From NCBI GenBank assembly GCA_017856435.1, contig JAFMFB010000005.1, forward strand, positions 1 through 64,000: a stretch of DNA of 64,000 nt, in the 5' to 3' direction. This document shows positions 3,387 through 47,144 of this stretch, piece after piece. Under the pieces are notes generated by a model that searched no databases, had not been told where the DNA came from, and worked only from the letters and a program-made list of their open reading frames with translations. Each line of letters begins with the position of its first letter. Position 1 is the stretch's first letter. Source of the stretch: Burkholderiaceae bacterium. GTDB lineage: Bacteria; Pseudomonadota; Gammaproteobacteria; Burkholderiales; Burkholderiaceae_C. A program made the position numbers and the translations under genes.

Positions 3387-4841
3387 ATGTACCGGCTCCT
3401 GATCTTCGCCCTGTTTTACCTGCTGTTGTTGCTTGTTCCGCTCGCCCTGAGTTTTTTGGGGCCGGATTCGCAGGTCATGCCGCCAAGGCCACTGCCTGAT
3501 GAGTTCGCGGCGGGCCTGGCCATGGTGGGGTTCACAGCGGTCCTGCTTGAGTTTTTCTTGCTCGGCCGTTTCCGACCCCTGTCACGAACGCTGGGCAGTG
3601 ACCTGGCCATGCAGGCCCATCAGTTGCTGGCCCGCAGTGCGCTGGTTTTTTTATGTCTGCACCCGTTTCTCTACAGCCTGTGGGGTCAGCAGCACCGGCC
3701 CTGGGATGAGAGCTATGCGCAAGCCCTGCGTATTGGTGGGGGATCCTGGGGGCTTTTCACCGGACTGCTGGCGCTGGGCGCCTTGCTGGCCATGGTGGTC
3801 CTGGCCCTGGGCCCCGCCAGGCGCAACAACTACGACCGCTGGCGCCTGGGGCATGGGGTGCTGGCTCTCGGGGTGTTGATCCTGGGCCTGCACCATACCC
3901 TGGCTTCAGGCCGTTACGCGCAATTGCCCGCACTGCAGGTGTTCTGGAGCATCCTGGCGCTGCTGGCAGCGGCGTCCTGGTTCGGGGTGTACCTGTTACG
4001 CCCCTTGCTGCAGAAGGGGCAGTCCTACCGCCTGAGTCTTGTTAAGCCGCTGGCCGAACGGATCTGGGAAATTGAAATTACCCCAACCTGTGGCAGCCCG
4101 ATGCGATTTTCGCCCGGTCAATTTGCCTGGCTCAAGCTGGGCGGACTGGCCCCTCACAAGGACCACCCCTTTTCCATCAGCTCAGCGCCACTTGCCAACG
4201 GATCGTTGAAGTTCATCGTCAAGGAGGCGGGTGACTTTACTCAGGCGCTGCCGGGCCAGGCGATCGGCACGGTGGCTTATGTGGACGGCCCCTATGGCAA
4301 TTTCAGCATCCCTGAAAAGGCCCAGGCCATCATCATGCTGGCCGGAGGCATTGGCATTGCGTCATTCACGGGGCTGCTGGCCGATTGCGCCCAGCGCGGT
4401 GAGCGCAGACCCATTCGACTGATCTATGCCGAGCATAACCCTGAGCAGATGGTGGCGCTTGCAGACTTGTGCCACTGTCAGAACCTGATCGACTTTCAAT
4501 TGCTGCCCATGGTGGAGAAGCCAGGCGCAGACTGGAATGGTCTGGTGGGACGACTCGACGCCCAGGGTCTGGCCAAGGCTCTGGCCCATCCCGCGGTAGC
4601 CTCAATAGCAGGCCAGGCTCACTACATGGTGTGTGGACCCGCGGCCATGATGGATGGGGTGGAAAGTCACCTGATAGCTAACGGTGTTCCGATGGAACGT
4701 GTGCAGTCGGAACATTTTCAGTATGACTTTCACGGATGCTCACCCCGCGCCTTGGTTTTGCGGCGAGGCTGGCTGGTCCTGTCGCTGATGGCAGGCTTTT
4801 TGAGTGCTCTGGTGCTTTCGCTCAGGGGCGCTACGGGCTGA
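3387..4841 (+). CDS. Ferric-reductase-like transmembrane flavohaem oxidoreductase
   Basis: A 484-residue membrane protein. The N-terminal half has about six hydrophobic helices with paired histidines in HQLLARSALVFLCLHP and GVLILGLHH, the haem-binding pattern of ferric-reductase-like domains. The C-terminal half is a ferredoxin-NADP reductase module: HPFSISSAP for FAD, GGIGIASFTG for NAD(P) and YMVCGPAAMMDGVE near the end. An extra hydrophobic helix closes the protein. It probably moves electrons from NAD(P)H across the membrane to an unidentified acceptor (iron, copper or a quinone). A TTG at 3342 in the same frame was rejected because the ATG at 3387 begins the first membrane helix. It converges with the CoxE-like gene. 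Confidence 0.8.
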   Translation: MYRLLIFALFYLLLLLVPLALSFLGPDSQVMPPRPLPDEFAAGLAMVGFTAVLLEFFLLGRFRPLSRTLGSDLAMQAHQLLARSALVFLCLHPFLYSLWGQQHRPWDESYAQALRIGGGSWGLFTGLLALGALLAMVVLALGPARRNNYDRWRLGHGVLALGVLILGLHHTLASGRYAQLPALQVFWSILALLAAASWFGVYLLRPLLQKGQSYRLSLVKPLAERIWEIEITPTCGSPMRFSPGQFAWLKLGGLAPHKDHPFSISSAPLANGSLKFIVKEAGDFTQALPGQAIGTVAYVDGPYGNFSIPEKAQAIIMLAGGIGIASFTGLLADCAQRGERRPIRLIYAEHNPEQMVALADLCHCQNLIDFQLLPMVEKPGADWNGLVGRLDAQGLAKALAHPAVASIAGQAHYMVCGPAAMMDGVESHLIANGVPMERVQSEHFQYDFHGCSPRALVLRRGWLVLSLMAGFLSALVLSLRGATG

Positions 4842-39256: not shown

Positions 39257-40114
39257 TTATTCCACCGGTTTGTCCTGGAACCGCATGGAAAAATCGATCG
39301 CCTTGATGTCTTTGGTTAAGGCCCCGACCGAGATTCGGTCGACCCCGGTTTGTGCCAGATCCCTGACGCTGTCCAGGTTCACCCCGCCCGAGATTTCCAG
39401 AACGGCGCGTCCCTGATTGCGCTGGACCGCTTCACGCAGCATGGGCAAGGGCATGTTATCCAGCAGGATCATGCTGGCGCCAGCGCGCAGGGCCTCATCG
39501 AGCTGACTGAGTGTTTCGACTTCCACCTCGATAAAAGTAGCCTGTGCGGCCAGGGTCTTGGCGGCCTGCACGGCCTGGGTCAGGCTGCCAGCGGCTGCGA
39601 TATGGTTTTCCTTGATCAGCACCGCATCAAACAGACCCATCCGATGGTTCTTTCCGCCGCCGCAGCGAACCGCGTACTTCTGAGCCACACGAAGGCCCGG
39701 CAGGGTCTTGCGCGTATCCACGATGGCCGCCTGCGTGCCTTGGGCGGCATCGACATATCGGGCGGTCTGGGTGGCCACAGCACTTAAGGTCTGAAGAAAA
39801 TTCAGGCAGGTACGCTCGGCCGTCAGGATCTCGCGGGCACAGCCCTGCAAGCTCAGGATCACTTGTCCGGGGCTGCAGCGTTGTCCGTCCTCGACCTGCC
39901 AACGAACGTGTGCCTCAGGGGCCAGCTGATGGAGTACTTCCATGACCCAGGGTTGGCCGCAAATGATGGCGGCCTCCCGGCAAATGATGGTGGCTGATGC
40001 CTGACGCGTCCGCTCAATCAGCCCGGCCGTCAGGTCACCGCTGCCCACATCTTCAAGAAGTGCGCGGCGTACATCGTCCTTTACCTGGGTTACAAAATCA
40101 GTGGCTTGGTTCAT
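39257..40114 (-). CDS. nadC: Nicotinate-nucleotide diphosphorylase (carboxylating)
   Basis: A 285-residue quinolinate phosphoribosyltransferase of NAD synthesis. Motifs are EDVGSGDLTAGLI at the N-terminus, ERTCLNFLQTLSAVAT, DTRKTLPGLRVAQKYAVRCGGGKNHRMGLFDAVLIKENH, IEVEVETLSQLDEAL and ILLDNMPLPMLREAV. All active-site elements are present. It leads a minus-strand series with DUF962, Bug and MmgE/PrpD, and is divergent from senB with 57 bases between starts. Confidence 0.96.
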   Translation of the reverse strand: MNQATDFVTQVKDDVRRALLEDVGSGDLTAGLIERTRQASATIICREAAIICGQPWVMEVLHQLAPEAHVRWQVEDGQRCSPGQVILSLQGCAREILTAERTCLNFLQTLSAVATQTARYVDAAQGTQAAIVDTRKTLPGLRVAQKYAVRCGGGKNHRMGLFDAVLIKENHIAAAGSLTQAVQAAKTLAAQATFIEVEVETLSQLDEALRAGASMILLDNMPLPMLREAVQRNQGRAVLEISGGVNLDSVRDLAQTGVDRISVGALTKDIKAIDFSMRFQDKPVE

Positions 40115-40171: not shown

Positions 40172-41155
40172 ATGACCATGGACAAACCCCTGGTCGTACT
40201 GGTCAGCCCGGCGTTGGCCGAATCGAACAACGGCAACTGGCAGACCGCCAAGCGCTGGCAGCACTTGGTGCGCGCTCATTACCGGCTAGAAATTGTCAAA
40301 CAGTGGCAAGCGGGAGATTCGCGGCCGGCCGCCATGCTGGCGCTGCACGCCAGGCGATCGGCCGAATCAATTGCAGCCTGGTCAGCCAGCTTTCCCGGTC
40401 GTGGGCTGGGGGTGGTGCTGACCGGCACTGATCTGTACCGCGATATCGAGTTCGACCCATGTGCCCAGCGCTCGCTGGCCCTGGCGCAACAGTTGGTGGT
40501 CCTGCAGGACTTGGGTCTTGGCAAGGTGCCCATGGCCTACCGCGACAAGTCTCGGGTGATCTACCAGTCCTCCCAAACCCGCGCTGCCCTGAAGAAAACG
40601 CGGCGACATCTGCGGGCGCTGATGGTCGGACATTTGCGAGAGGAAAAGTTGCCGCAGACGCTGTTTGAGGCAGCGCAAAGGCTGGATCCTGCGCAGGGCA
40701 TTCTGATCGATCATATTGGCGCGGGTCTGGATTCGGCCCTGGCCGATCAAGCCCGCCACACCATGGCCAATTGCCCGCATTACCGATGGCTGGGGGCGCT
40801 TGCGCATGACAAGGTGCTCGCACGCATCCAGCGCTCGCATCTGCTGGTGCATTGCAGCCGCATGGAAGGCGGCGCCCATGTGGTGATGGAGGCGGTGTGC
40901 AGCGGCACGCCGGTGCTGGCCTCCGATGCGCCAGGCAATGTGGGCATGTTGGGTCTGGACTATGCGGGCTACTTTCCTACTGGCGATGCAGCCGCGCTGG
41001 TTGACTTGTTGTGCCGCTGCCGCCAGGACATGGTTGCGGCCAACAGCACTCTGGCCCGCTTGCAGGCACAATGCGCGCTGCGCGCCCCGCTGTTTTCACC
41101 CCTGGCAGAGCAAACTGCATTGCTGGCTCTGCTGGATCAACTCCTATCAACATGA
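40172..41155 (+). CDS. senB: SenB-type selenosugar synthase (TIGR04348 glycosyltransferase)
   Basis: A 327-residue GT-B glycosyltransferase of the TIGR04348 family. Diagnostic stretches are NNGNWQTAKRWQHL, ALHARRSAESIAAW, VVLTGTDLYRDIEFD and EGGAHVVMEAVCSGTPVLASD. In the selenoneine pathway of Variovorax, SenB couples selenophosphate to a UDP-sugar to give a selenosugar. The ATG at 40172 is chosen, with 40178 an alternative. The open frame from 40106 overlaps nadC. Its stop overlaps the start of selD (ATGA), which encodes the enzyme making its selenium donor. No SenA-like gene is in the window. Confidence 0.85.
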   Translation: MTMDKPLVVLVSPALAESNNGNWQTAKRWQHLVRAHYRLEIVKQWQAGDSRPAAMLALHARRSAESIAAWSASFPGRGLGVVLTGTDLYRDIEFDPCAQRSLALAQQLVVLQDLGLGKVPMAYRDKSRVIYQSSQTRAALKKTRRHLRALMVGHLREEKLPQTLFEAAQRLDPAQGILIDHIGAGLDSALADQARHTMANCPHYRWLGALAHDKVLARIQRSHLLVHCSRMEGGAHVVMEAVCSGTPVLASDAPGNVGMLGLDYAGYFPTGDAAALVDLLCRCRQDMVAANSTLARLQAQCALRAPLFSPLAEQTALLALLDQLLST

Positions 41156-42216
41156 ACGCCCCTGACCTTTTACCGACCGAACCCCGCCTGACCTCACTGT
41201 CCCACGGAGGCGGCTGTGGCTGCAAGATTGCGCCCGGGGTGTTGTCTGAAATTCTTAAAAGTGGTTCGGGCCTGCCAGTGCCTGCCGAGCTGCTGGTGGG
41301 GATTGAAACCGCCGATGATGCGGCGGTGTATCAGCTCAATGAGGAGCAGGCGCTGATTGCCACCACCGACTTCTTCATGCCGATTGTGGACAACCCGTTT
41401 GACTTTGGACGGATCGCCGCCACCAATGCGATTTCGGATGTGTATGCGATGGGAGGGCGCCCCATCATGGCCCTGGCCCTGGTCGGTATGCCGATCAGCG
41501 TGCTGTCCACCGACACAATTGGCCAGATTCTGGCCGGTGGGCAGGCCGTATGCAAAGCCGCCGGCATTCCGATTGCCGGGGGACACACCATCGATTCGGT
41601 CGAGCCGATCTATGGGCTGGTGGCGCTGGGCCTGGTCCATCCCAAGCGCGTCAAGCGCAATGCCGATGCCCAGGTAGGTGACCGGCTGATTTTGGGCAAG
41701 GCGCTGGGCGTGGGTGTGCTGTCGGCGGTGCTGAAGAAGGAACTACTCGATGCCGCGGGCTACCACCGAATGATTGCCAGCACCACCCAGCTCAACACTC
41801 CGGGGCCAGAGCTGGCTGCGATCGATGGTGTGCATGCTTTGACCGATGTGACCGGTTTTGGCCTGGCGGGGCACGCGCTGGAACTGGCCCGTGGCGCCAA
41901 TTGCACAGTACAGATTGATTGGAGTCGGGTGCCTTTGCTCGATGGTGTCCGAGACTTTGCCGCGCAAGGTTTGATCACCGGCGCTTCTGGACGTAACTGG
42001 CAAGCCTATGGCAAGGATGTGCAGCTACCGGCAGGGTTTGCTTCGGCAGACCAGGCCTTGCTGACCGACCCACAGACCAGTGGTGGCCTGTTGGTGAGCT
42101 GTGCGGCGCACTGCGTGCAAGAGGTGCGGGCGGTCTTTCAACGCCATGGGTTTGAGGCGGTCGCAGAAATTGGTGAAATCACCCATACAGGTGGTGGCCA
42201 ACTGGTGGTGCGTTAG
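41152..42216 (+). CDS. selD: Selenide, water dikinase (selenophosphate synthetase)
   Basis: A 354-residue SelD that makes selenophosphate from selenide and ATP. The catalytic cysteine and lysine are in GGCGCKIAP (C22 and K25), so this is the cysteine form rather than a selenoprotein. Further motifs are DDAAVYQLNEEQALIATTDFF, ATNAISDVYAMGGRP, GGHTIDSVEPIYGL and DVTGFGLAGHALELA. It is translationally coupled to senB. It ends 6 bases before the convergent ftsY stop. It may also supply selenouridine or selenocysteine synthesis elsewhere in the genome. Confidence 0.96.
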   Translation: MNAPDLLPTEPRLTSLSHGGGCGCKIAPGVLSEILKSGSGLPVPAELLVGIETADDAAVYQLNEEQALIATTDFFMPIVDNPFDFGRIAATNAISDVYAMGGRPIMALALVGMPISVLSTDTIGQILAGGQAVCKAAGIPIAGGHTIDSVEPIYGLVALGLVHPKRVKRNADAQVGDRLILGKALGVGVLSAVLKKELLDAAGYHRMIASTTQLNTPGPELAAIDGVHALTDVTGFGLAGHALELARGANCTVQIDWSRVPLLDGVRDFAAQGLITGASGRNWQAYGKDVQLPAGFASADQALLTDPQTSGGLLVSCAAHCVQEVRAVFQRHGFEAVAEIGEITHTGGGQLVVR

Positions 42217-42222
42217 TTCAGC

Positions 42223-43221
42223 TCAGGCTAGCAGGGCCTGGGCAAATTCGCGGGCGCTGAAGGTCTGCAGATCGTCCAGCTGCTCGCCCACCCCGATAAA
42301 GTACACCGGCACAGGTCGTTCACGGGCAATGGCAGCCAGTACGCCACCCTTGGCCGTGCCATCCAGCTTGGTGACGATCAGCCCGGTCAGCCCGAGGGCT
42401 TCATCAAAGGCACGAACCTGGGCCAGGGCGTTCTGCCCGGTGTTGCCATCGATCACCAGCAGGACTTCATGCGGGGCCGTGGCATCGGCCTTCTGAACCA
42501 CGCGCCTGATTTTTTTTAGCTCTTCCATCAGGTGCAATTGGGTAGGAAGACGACCGGCCGTATCCACCAGCACCACATCCTTGGCGCGGGCCTTGCCAGC
42601 GCTTATGGCATCAAAGCACACCGCGGCAGGATCAGCACCCTCCTGGCTGATGATTTCCACCTGGTTGCGACCTGCCCAGACACTGAGCTGTTCGCGCGCA
42701 GCCGCACGGAAGGTGTCGGCGGCGGCCAACAGCACACTGGCACCGGCGTCAGCCAGATGACGGGTCAGCTTGCCGATCGAAGTTGTCTTGCCAGCGCCGT
42801 TCACGCCGGCCACCATGATGACTGTGGGCGTGTGATGCCCGATCGACAGCGGTTTTTCAAGTGGGCTCAGCAATTCGGTCAGGGCGTCCATCAACAGACC
42901 CTTGACCGCTGCTGGCTCGCTCGTCTTGCTATCCTTGACCCGTCGCCTGAGGTCTTTCAGCAGATACTCGGTGGCCTGAACCCCGGCATCCGCCATCAAG
43001 AGCGCTTCCTCAAGTTCCTCGTACAGGCCCTCATCAAGCCGGGTACCGGTAAATACGGTGGCAATACTCGAGCCAGTTTTTCGCAAACCCGCGCTGAGTT
43101 TGTCCAGCCATGACTTGCGGGAAACGGTGGGGGGTCCAGCAGGGTGGGTTGCCGGCTTGACCGGTTCGGCCGCAGTGCCTTGATGGGGTGAAGGGGATTT
43201 TTTCTTAAAAAAACTGAACAT
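42223..43221 (-). CDS. ftsY: Signal recognition particle receptor FtsY
   Basis: A 332-residue SRP-type GTPase that receives ribosome-SRP complexes at the membrane. It has a short basic, proline-rich N-terminal region, the N domain, and the G domain with VNGAGKTTSIGKL (G1), LVDTAGRLPTQ (G3) and TKLDGTAKGG (G4). The ATG at 43221 gives the typical MFSFFKKK opening. The longer frame runs through the divergent peptidase gene and is rejected. Confidence 0.96.
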   Translation of the reverse strand: MFSFFKKKSPSPHQGTAAEPVKPATHPAGPPTVSRKSWLDKLSAGLRKTGSSIATVFTGTRLDEGLYEELEEALLMADAGVQATEYLLKDLRRRVKDSKTSEPAAVKGLLMDALTELLSPLEKPLSIGHHTPTVIMVAGVNGAGKTTSIGKLTRHLADAGASVLLAAADTFRAAAREQLSVWAGRNQVEIISQEGADPAAVCFDAISAGKARAKDVVLVDTAGRLPTQLHLMEELKKIRRVVQKADATAPHEVLLVIDGNTGQNALAQVRAFDEALGLTGLIVTKLDGTAKGGVLAAIARERPVPVYFIGVGEQLDDLQTFSAREFAQALLA

Positions 43222-43249
43222 GACGTGCGTTCTTAGAATGCTGCATTCT

Positions 43250-44653
43250 ATGAAACGCCTTTTTCTTTCAATTTTTACCCTGCTGCTCGCAATGCCCCTG
43301 CTGGCTGTGAGCCAGCCCCAGCTCGGGGGAGGGGCCGGGGTTGAGCAGTTCACCCTGGCCAATGGCATGACGCTCATTGTCAAGCCAGACCGGCGAGCGC
43401 CCACCGCAATTCACATGCTGTGGGTGCGGGTCGGTGCGATGGATGAAGTAGACGGCACCAGCGGCGTGGCCCATGTGCTGGAGCACATGCTCTTCAAGGG
43501 CACACCCAGTGTGCCCGCTGGCGAGTTTTCTCGCCGGGTGGCAGCACTGGGCGGGCGCGAGAACGCTTTTACCGGCCAGGACTACACCGGCTATTTCCAG
43601 CAAATCCCGGCCGATCGCCTGCAAGAGGTGATGCGACTGGAGGCGGACCGTTTTGCCAACAACCAGTGGCCCGATCAGGAGTTCACCAAGGAACTCGAGG
43701 TGGTCAAGGAAGAGCGCCGCCTTCGCACCGAGGACAACCCGCGCGCCTTGTTGTATGAGGCGCTCAACGCTGCAGCTTTTCAAGCTTCACCTTACCGGCG
43801 ACCGGTGGTGGGCTGGATGAGCGATCTGGAGGCCATGACCCCGCAGGACGCCCGAGATTTTTTCCACCGTTGGTATGTCCCGGCCAATGCGGCTGTGGTC
43901 GTGGTGGGCGATGTGGATGTGGATCGGGTGCGTCAGTTGGCCGAACAGATCTACGGGCGTTTGCCAGCCCGTGCCTTGCCCGCACGCAAGCCAAGGCAGG
44001 AGCCCCAGCAACTCGGAATTCGACGGCTGGTGGTCAAGGCACCGGCCGAGCAGGCCTATGTGTCGCTGGCCTTCAAGGTGCCCGGGCTACGATCGCTGGA
44101 CCAGCCCTCGGCACAGGATGAAGATGCCCTGGCCCTGACGGTTTTGGCGGCCGTGCTGGATGGTTACAACGGGGCCCGCCTGGACCGCGCCCTGACGCAG
44201 GGATCTGACCGCCTAGCCGACAGTGCCGGCGCTTTCAACGGTTTGCTGGGGCGCGGCCCCCAGCTTTTCATGCTCGATGGCGTTCCGGCCAAAGGCAAAT
44301 CTGCCCAACAGGTCGAGACGGCCTTGCGCGAACAGGTGGCCACGGTGGCCCGTGAAGGGGTTTCCGAGGCTGAGCTGCAACGGGTGAAAACCCAGTGGAT
44401 CGCCAGCCAGGTGTACAAAAAGGATTCGCTCATGGCGCAGGCGCGAGAACTGGGCAGCAACTGGGTGCAAGGCTTGCCGCTGGATGCTGCCGACAGCTTG
44501 TTGTATCGCCTGCGCAAGGTCACCGCCGATCAGGTACGCTCGGTGGCCGCGCGTTATTTTGGAGATGATCAGCTCACAGTGGCTCATCTGCAGCCGCAAG
44601 CGATCGACCCCAACAAGCCACGCCCCAAGCCTGCCTCTGGCGGGCGCCATTGA
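43250..44653 (+). CDS. M16-family zinc peptidase (catalytic member)
   Basis: A 467-residue insulinase-family peptidase with a signal peptide (to about VSQPQ, residue 23). The inverted zinc motif HVLEH lies in GVAHVLEHMLFKGT, followed by the downstream glutamate in ELEVVKEERRLRTEDNP. The ATG at 43250 begins the signal peptide and lies 28 bases from the divergent ftsY start. A second M16 gene without the zinc motif follows, so the two probably form a periplasmic heterodimer like mitochondrial processing peptidase. Confidence 0.93.
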   Translation: MKRLFLSIFTLLLAMPLLAVSQPQLGGGAGVEQFTLANGMTLIVKPDRRAPTAIHMLWVRVGAMDEVDGTSGVAHVLEHMLFKGTPSVPAGEFSRRVAALGGRENAFTGQDYTGYFQQIPADRLQEVMRLEADRFANNQWPDQEFTKELEVVKEERRLRTEDNPRALLYEALNAAAFQASPYRRPVVGWMSDLEAMTPQDARDFFHRWYVPANAAVVVVGDVDVDRVRQLAEQIYGRLPARALPARKPRQEPQQLGIRRLVVKAPAEQAYVSLAFKVPGLRSLDQPSAQDEDALALTVLAAVLDGYNGARLDRALTQGSDRLADSAGAFNGLLGRGPQLFMLDGVPAKGKSAQQVETALREQVATVAREGVSEAELQRVKTQWIASQVYKKDSLMAQARELGSNWVQGLPLDAADSLLYRLRKVTADQVRSVAARYFGDDQLTVAHLQPQAIDPNKPRPKPASGGRH

Positions 44654-46042: not shown

Positions 46043-46635
46043 ACCTTTCGCCTGTTGCCCGAAAGAAAGCCAGCCGCTCTGCTGCCGGCGAGGTCAGGAT
46101 CATCGGCGGAGTCTGGCGTCGCCACAAGCTGCCAGTGCCAGACAAGCCTGGCTTGCGGCCCACGCCTGATCGGGTGCGCGAGACTCTCTTCAACTGGCTT
46201 GGCCAGGACCTTGCCGGCTGGCGTTGCCTGGATGCCTTTGCCGGAACCGGCGTGCTTGGACTGGAGGCGGCATCACGGGGCGCCAAAGAGGTTCGTCTTA
46301 TTGAGCAGGACGTGCAGTTGGTTCAGCAGCTCAAGTTGGCCCAGACCAAACTGCAGGCCCACGCTGTGGTGGTATCTCGCGGCGATGGCCTGGCTGTCAT
46401 GCAGCAATTAACCCCTGGCAGCTTGGATCTTATTTTTCTGGATCCTCCATTCGATGCCGATCTGTTCGATCAGGCCTTGCTGCGAGCCGCCCCGCTGCTG
46501 TCTAGCGGCGGATTCATCTACCTGGAATCGCCCAGGCCTTGGGACGAGGCGCAACTTGAACCGTTTGGCCTGACGCTTTATCGCTACCTCAAGGCCGGTG
46601 CTGTTCATGCTCACTTGTTGCAAAGGAAAACCTGA
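46039..46635 (+). CDS. rsmD: 16S rRNA (guanine(966)-N2)-methyltransferase
   Basis: A 198-residue RNA methyltransferase. IIGGVWRRHKLPVPD and LRPTPDRVRETLFNWL are the RsmD N-terminal signature, CLDAFAGTGVLGLEAASRGA is SAM motif I, and FLDPPFDADLF is the catalytic (D/N)PPF. The start is TTG at 46039, with its TTGA overlapping the M16 stop. No ATG starts the family sequence. It overlaps the DinB-like gene by one base. Confidence 0.95.
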   Translation: MNLSPVARKKASRSAAGEVRIIGGVWRRHKLPVPDKPGLRPTPDRVRETLFNWLGQDLAGWRCLDAFAGTGVLGLEAASRGAKEVRLIEQDVQLVQQLKLAQTKLQAHAVVVSRGDGLAVMQQLTPGSLDLIFLDPPFDADLFDQALLRAAPLLSSGGFIYLESPRPWDEAQLEPFGLTLYRYLKAGAVHAHLLQRKT

Positions 46636-47144
46636 TGTCTGCCCTGTCACACCTGCGTATGCTCACCCGCTACAGCACCTGGGCCAACACATTGATGTTT
46701 GACGTGCTGGCGACCTTGCCGTCTGAGCAGGTCAACGCGGTGCGAGTCACCCTGTTTGGCTCCATGGTCAACACCCTCAATCATTCCTTGGTCATAGACA
46801 AGATCTGGCAGGCGCATCTGCAGGGCCGCGCGCATGGTTTTACCAAGCGGATCACCGACTCGGTGCCTGCCCTGGCAGACCTGCGCAGCGCACAGGCTGA
46901 GCTCGATGCCTGGTTTGTGCAGTATGCCGATGGGCTCGACCCTGTGACCGAGGCGCAGGTGGTCAACTTCGAATTTGTTGACGGCGGTAACGGTGCCATG
47001 ACCCGGGGCGATATTCTTCTGCATATCGTCAACCACAAGACCTACCACCGTGGCGTGGTGGCCGACATGCTGTACCAGGCCGGTTCCAAACCGCCGGTGA
47101 TGGATCTGCCCGTATTTCTGCGGGATACGTCGCCTGCCGGGTAA
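46635..47144 (+). CDS. DinB-family protein
   Basis: A 169-residue four-helix-bundle protein of the DinB/YfiT fold. Candidate metal-binding histidines are in NHSLVIDKIWQAHL and in LHIVNHKTYHRGVVADML, the family's H...HxxxH arrangement. DinB-like proteins are often thiol transferases or damage-responsive enzymes of unknown substrate. Start and rsmD stop share one base (TGATG). Confidence 0.88.
   Translation: MSALSHLRMLTRYSTWANTLMFDVLATLPSEQVNAVRVTLFGSMVNTLNHSLVIDKIWQAHLQGRAHGFTKRITDSVPALADLRSAQAELDAWFVQYADGLDPVTEAQVVNFEFVDGGNGAMTRGDILLHIVNHKTYHRGVVADMLYQAGSKPPVMDLPVFLRDTSPAG

Follow-up and report, generated by a model that had tools for sequence, protein, structure and literature searches.

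A senB–selD pair without senA or egtD in Burkholderiaceae, probably a selenosugar-making unit retained after the loss of selenoneine synthesis

Selenoneine is made in Variovorax paradoxus by a sen cluster that comprises SenA, SenB and SenC (SelD). SelD produces selenophosphate, with which SenB, using a UDP-sugar, forms a 1-selenosugar (PMC9814287; accessible text of PMC10891094), the donor being UDP-GlcNAc or UDP-Glc in the enzymes studied. The accessible text of PMC10891094 assigns sugar-donor roles to N20, T23 and E231 of V. paradoxus SenB and cleavage of the Se–P bond to K158, and describes RsSenB as an active enzyme; that of PMC10702425 proposes N20, H58, R61, T83, T85 and R155 as selenophosphate contacts and E239 as a ribose contact. 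According to the same part of PMC10891094, the genes for V. paradoxus SenB, RsSenB and CbSenB sit in selenoneine clusters, unlike the senB described here.

A selenium gene without known partner systems has been described before, and was taken as a sign of a selenium use not yet described: the selD orphans of Enterococcus faecalis and Haloarcula marismortui, orphan selD being a marker of selenium-dependent molybdenum hydroxylases (accessible text of PMC2276186). There the orphan is selD itself, whereas here it is the selenosugar synthase, next to a selD that also serves SelU. The ovoselenol pathway, which yields a second bacterial selenometabolite (accessible text of PMC13188914), can be likened to the present case by its description only, not by its genes. 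A literature search, with the Kayrouz 2022 and 2024 originals outside its scope, found no paper on SenB without SenA, and found SenB described solely as a step toward selenoneine.

The window, i.e., the whole stretch of 64,000 nucleotides that was analysed, lies within contig C66 of a genome (G000) of 2.57 Mb in 97 contigs that is 98.87% complete. It carries the following features.

39257..40114, minus strand: nadC, divergent from senB and filling the place that egtD has in congeners (TIGR00078; same order in the sister genome G015, locus L035)
40172..41155, plus strand: senB (ATG start at 40172, stop at 41155), predicted selenosugar synthase (Se-glycosyltransferase) of 327 aa (TIGR04348, PDB SenB structures)
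40235..40246, plus strand: SenB residues N22 to T25 (N20 to T23 in V. paradoxus), which contact the sugar donor (alignments; accessible text of PMC10891094)
40646..40648, plus strand: SenB residue K159, equivalent to V. paradoxus K158, Se–P bond cleavage (alignments; accessible text of PMC10891094)
40865..40891, plus strand: SenB residues E232 through E240, with GGAHV after E232; the two glutamates correspond to E231 and E239, which contact sugar and ribose (alignments; accessible text of PMC10891094 and PMC10702425)
41152..41155, plus strand: ATGA shared by the stop of senB and the start of selD (sequence)
41152..42216, plus strand: selD (senC in the selenoneine pathway; ATG start at 41152, stop at 42216), selenophosphate synthetase of 354 aa (NF002098, TIGR00476)
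42223..43404, minus strand: ftsY, a convergent flank outside the system (TIGR00064)

The first-pass annotation had named a SenB-type glycosyltransferase and a selD that overlap by four bases, with nadC and ftsY as neighbours on the other strand, and each of these calls is borne out. SenB scores 425.8 bits against TIGR04348 (cut-off 300) over model positions 1–309 of 310, and a phmmer search with it matches the solved structures 8k5u, 8fbx, 8jjq and 8jjn with E of 2e-113 or better, the matches to the solved chains being full-length at 382–389 bits. SelD, with GGGCGCK near its N-terminus, reaches 533.4 bits against NF002098 (cut-off 299) and 419.5 bits, above the curated cut-off, against TIGR00476. 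The gene nadC, whose start lies 57 bases upstream of senB on the opposite strand, matches TIGR00078 with 325 bits (cut-off 198.4), and ftsY matches TIGR00064 with 333 bits (cut-off 260.7). As in the V. paradoxus cluster, selD directly follows senB. All 15 loci tested in the genus have its ATG at –4, a count that leaves out G010, G012, G019 and G025; in G010 and G025 the SelD adjoining senB is of a distant type, 33–34% identical. Judging from the overlap, senB and selD are probably coupled in translation.

The pair also resembles the V. paradoxus cluster in its SenB and SelD membership and in key residues. The EGGAHV motif and the K158 equivalent of V. paradoxus SenB (8fbx, 8jjq), RsSenB (8k5u) and CbSenB are present in the G000 protein as well, and the alignment finds equivalents of N20, T23, H58, R61, T83, T85, R155, K158, E231 and E239 all in place. 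V. paradoxus R22 is replaced by Q, as it is in RsSenB. Loss of donor or acceptor residues, for which the first-pass annotation had suggested a check, is not seen in the alignment; the enzyme call stands, and by comparison with its homologues SenB looks like a working enzyme.

The difference from V. paradoxus lies in the remaining steps. The same annotation had remarked that no senA adjoins senB–selD; the observation is correct, but such an arrangement is normal in the genus and does not carry the argument. Among 15 congeners with both genes, senA adjoins senB only in G005, where it is placed between senB and egtD; in the other 14 it is on a separate contig or 0.39 Mb (G007) or 1.8 Mb (G013) apart. 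We thus reject a missing adjacent senA as sufficient evidence, and it is the genome-wide absence that counts, since a non-adjacent senA is usual even where the pathway is whole. In G000, window included, there is no match to the SenA signature TIGR04373 and no match to the SenA model NF041186 at E ≤ 1e-30, nor is there an EgtD match to PF10017 at E ≤ 1e-3 or at E ≤ 1e-30. The suggestion that senA lies elsewhere in the genome therefore falls, and the known route cannot end in selenoneine. The sister genome G015 is likewise without SenA and EgtD. Of the further selenium genes that had been proposed for a search, SelA has no TIGR00474 match in G000 or G015, and SelU/MnmH is matched in G000 (G000:C70:31257-32168; 354.3 bits, cut-off 219.75) as in each of the 23 genus genomes searched, G000 among them. 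With SelU and SenB both present, selenophosphate has two visible clients in G000, and selD alone proves nothing, because genomes with SelU need it anyway.

SenB occurs in 19 of the 26 genomes of the genus. The SenA signature was searched in 23 of them (G006, G009 and G017, all without SenB, were left out) and is matched in 15 of the 19 SenB genomes and in four of four SenB-negative ones. Five of the proteins were scanned with NF041186 (cut-off 420): those of G011 and G018 score 508 and 451 bits, and those of G005, G002 and G003 fall just under the cut-off at 406–411 bits. The hercynine synthase gene egtD stands beside senB in 17 of the 19 SenB genomes; the exceptions are G000 and G015, both of which have nadC in its place, and a tblastn search of the window and of L035 in G015 turned up no remnant of egtD.

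The senA locus of the genus lies between a regulator gene (HTH and PBP-like domains) and dctQ and dctM of a TRAP-type transporter; next to it is an ABC operon whose binding protein is TupA-like (239.5 bits, short of the curated 400-bit cut-off). An 8.7-kb query of this block, with senA at query positions 3476–4744, matches G000:C64 from 71513 to 78739, in order, with senA missing. The stretch that separates dctQ from the last matched codon of the regulator measures about 165 bases in G000, as against 260 in G015; the congeners have a senA of 1.27 kb where G000 has those ~165 bp, and tblastn finds no senA remnant at the syntenic place of either genome. An assembly gap in G000 or G015 is rejected, as the block, lacking senA, runs on unbroken within one contig. 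Two other genomes, G020 and G022 (83–85% complete), have no SenA signature but do have EgtD, and are not counted as orphans; their senA block ends at a contig end (G020:C138:1 and G022:C45:51), and the absence of SenA there is likely due to an assembly gap or incompleteness. With two losses in separate places, both common to the two sisters, loss of the selenoneine pathway is a better reading than a single chance deletion.

We note that the arrangement of TupA-like ABC operon, regulator and TRAP-type transporter around senA (L116–L123) is kept even without senB, in G018. This genome (L054, L120, L205) is a mirror image, with SenA at the usual locus, 77% identical to that of G011, and with neither SenB nor EgtD. 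SenA-like proteins without SenB or EgtD are also found in G002 to G004 (L055–L057).

We consider it probable that senB–selD is a working selenosugar-making unit, retained after selenoneine was lost, whose selenosugar is used itself or fed onward. SelD would turn selenide and ATP into selenophosphate, and SenB, whose translation from a shared message is probably coupled, would put the selenium on C1 of a UDP-sugar, with K159 cutting the Se–P bond to release the 1-selenosugar; close homologues are the guide to this reaction in the G000 organism. The lineage would formerly have made selenoneine and would have cleanly lost, in two places, egtD (for hercynine) and senA (for the step between hercynine and the selenosugar), and the first half would have been retained with a selenosugar that is useful in itself or feeds a further step. 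The selenosugar would then be the product that matters, and it may mark the end of the pathway, serve as a store or redox-active selenol, be released, or act as donor for a further enzyme. The earlier reading of the pair as an incomplete or alternative pathway is supported by the absence of SenA and EgtD and the clean losses, and by the recurrence and purifying selection described below.

In a family sample of 399 genomes, SenB is found in 143, a SenA-profile match (E ≤ 1e-30) in 295 and an EgtD match (E ≤ 1e-30) in 264, and at least 111 of the 143 SenB genomes have a SenA match over the 420-bit cut-off. We call orphan a SenB genome that has neither a SenA-like protein nor EgtD. Among the 123 SenB genomes at least 90% complete (completeness is the sole criterion; contamination ≤5% gives 118, with all 12 orphans retained), 108 have both of the others, two only a SenA-like protein, one only EgtD, and 12 neither, a figure that is conservative on the SenA side, as EgtB-like proteins count as SenA at E ≤ 1e-30, and for which short EgtD fragments could be missed at the EgtD cut-off of E ≤ 1e-30. 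The 12 orphans belong to eight genera: G000 (g1), G045 and G255 (g21), G060 and G183 (g36), G161 (g137), G212, G286 and G405 (g87), G226 (g106), G247 (g140) and G360 (g103). The g87 genomes are 100% complete in 3 to 10 contigs. SelA, absent from G000 and G015, is present in G060, G183 and G247 among the other 12 of the 14 orphans that make up the tree set below.

The SenB tree and the residue counts are based on 65 proteins: 14 orphans (the 12, G015, and G214 from a genome 73% complete), 17 other members of the genus and 34 others with loci. Not every one of the 51 non-orphan rows represents the full pathway: no SenA match is seen for G020, G022 and G081, and in G194, G219 and G402 a SenA-like match comes without an EgtD match. 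On the maximum-likelihood tree the orphan label requires nine changes, eight of them forced by starred branches, against a mean of 12.9 for shuffled labels (0 of 500 shuffles as low as nine); some of these changes may be regains rather than losses. The clade (100/99) that holds the group of G000 and G015 (87/90) also includes 14 of the 17 other genus members. The ten catalytic and contact residues listed above for G000 are kept in 14 of 14 orphan SenBs, and the uracil contact N17 is altered in three of 14 orphans versus one of 51 other SenBs. Outside the genus, the full-pathway G130 and the orphan G226 share a locus: in G130, whose egtD is confirmed, senA and egtD lie between senB and a phosphonate-type ABC transporter, and both are missing in G226. 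Some genomes have two SenB genes (G218, G269; L106, L112).

With one genus holding G000 and G015 (SenB–SelD, no SenA or EgtD) as well as G018 (SenA, no SenB or EgtD), the two halves of the pathway could be joined by exchange, orphan cells releasing the selenosugar or its oxidised dimer and SenA-keeping neighbours finishing selenoneine. In the family sample, seven of 24 genomes with SenA over the cut-off and no SenB are also without EgtD, among the matches listed. However, no exporter is conserved beside the pair, and the SenA of SenB-less genomes could serve another reaction, and we regard exchange as unlikely.

SenB is kept under purifying selection in the orphans. By the Nei–Gojobori method, which is imprecise at dS near or above 1, the dN/dS of orphan SenB pairs is 0.18 in g36, 0.15–0.16 for three g87 pairs, 0.24 for G226–G214, 0.34 for G000–G015 (bootstrap 5–95% 0.25–0.42) and 0.58 for G045–G255 of g21, two genomes that are not sisters on the tree; six of the seven pairs are thus at 0.15–0.34. 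Ten non-orphan pairs give 0.147–0.316, a range that G000–G015 slightly exceeds while staying far below 1, and six comparisons of orphans with non-orphans of the same genus give 0.26–0.50, highest in g21 and for G360. If the loss preceded the split of a pair, its value describes evolution after senA and egtD were gone, and shared arrangements suggest this order for G000–G015, g36 and g87.

Some relaxation is possible in view of the raised values (0.34, 0.58 and 0.26–0.50), and these also speak for a relic, i.e., a recent loss of selenoneine with senB decaying and held only by its coupling to a selD needed for SelU. SelU is indeed in every searched genome of the genus, and, through the overlap, translation of selD might keep senB in frame. 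Coupling requires an open frame, however, not kept active-site residues, and it requires no dN/dS of 0.15–0.18 at dS 0.2–1.3 (g36, g87). When senB is simulated under neutrality with 0.47 changes per site, just 0.3% of 2000 runs stay stop-free, and senB is intact although apart from selD in G247 (359 bp) and in G045 (1.4 kb, with another ORF between). A decaying senB is, like exchange, an unlikely explanation.

Around the orphan pairs, senB is followed directly by selD in 12 of 14 loci; selD is broken in the assembly of G183 and is not on the contig piece of G360. The ORF between senB and selD in G045 (L180:8911-10305, minus strand) encodes 464 aa with a hydrophobic segment near the start, and the rhodanese-domain protein after selD in this genome is taken as SelU. 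A YedE-type transporter (PF04143), which like the SelU-like protein of G045 is a neighbour linked to selenium, stands beside the pair in G212 and G286, and in all three g87 genomes (G212, G286, G405) SelD is fused to an N-terminal pyridine nucleotide-disulphide oxidoreductase (L184:8905-11286, L188:5610-7991, L190:5007-7967), the order in L184 and L188 being YedE-type transporter, senB and selD fusion. An M3 peptidase is near the pair in G060 and G183. The phosphonate-type ABC transporter, possibly a selenium importer, is found in the orphans G226 and G214 and in the non-orphans G130 and G164; it is near senB in several genera (L185, L191, L196, L197; L180, L182, L190) whether senA and egtD are present or not, and was identified from a PF12974 binding protein and an ATPase in L185 and by ORF clustering in the other loci. 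The cluster c37 ORFs (L182, L187) lie antisense to selD, judging from their coordinates, and gave no Pfam hit.

Clustering of the ORFs of 22 loci, with Pfam scans of 10 chosen ORFs, revealed no enzyme common to all orphan-pair neighbourhoods, and neither a consumer of the selenosugar nor a product was found. The lack of a common candidate gene beside the orphan pairs weighs against a substitute for SenA, an unrelated enzyme that would make selenoneine from imported hercynine, or a compound such as ovoselenol, from the selenosugar. Ovoselenol does provide the precedent of a second bacterial selenometabolite (accessible text of PMC13188914), and the existence of some SenA genomes without EgtD makes hercynine import thinkable, but the only FGE-sulfatase-domain protein of G000 (L002:1420-2118, G000:C2) has 232 aa, a signal-like N-terminus and no DinB domain, and we hold a substitute to be quite improbable. 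SenA resembles EgtB, whose N-terminal domain is DinB-like. A small DinB-family protein is encoded directly after rsmD at 46635-47144 of the window, and also in G015, and was not found beside rsmD in the examined stretches of G013 and G007. No support was found for a split SenA made up of this protein and the FGE-domain protein. Use of another acceptor by SenB, e.g., thiophosphate to give a thiosugar or another glycoside, is very improbable, even though V. paradoxus SenB discriminates merely 10-20-fold against thiophosphate (accessible text of PMC10702425), given the position of selD directly downstream in all but two of the orphan loci and the conservation of every proposed selenophosphate contact.

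We rank use of the selenosugar itself, or by an undescribed partner, above exchange, decay and a hidden substitute for SenA. More tentatively, several Burkholderiales lineages may make a free 1-selenosugar, either as a finished metabolite (a small selenol with redox activity, or a store of selenium) or to supply an undescribed enzyme with its donor. The repeated loss of the steps after SenB, with SenB itself under selection, suggests a role of their own for selenosugars in bacteria. If so, this would be a further selenium small-molecule trait beside selenoneine and ovoselenol, marked by senB–selD without senA and egtD. The orphan genomes, of which three are assembled in 3 to 10 contigs, are a short list in which to look directly for a new selenometabolite or selenium-transfer enzyme.
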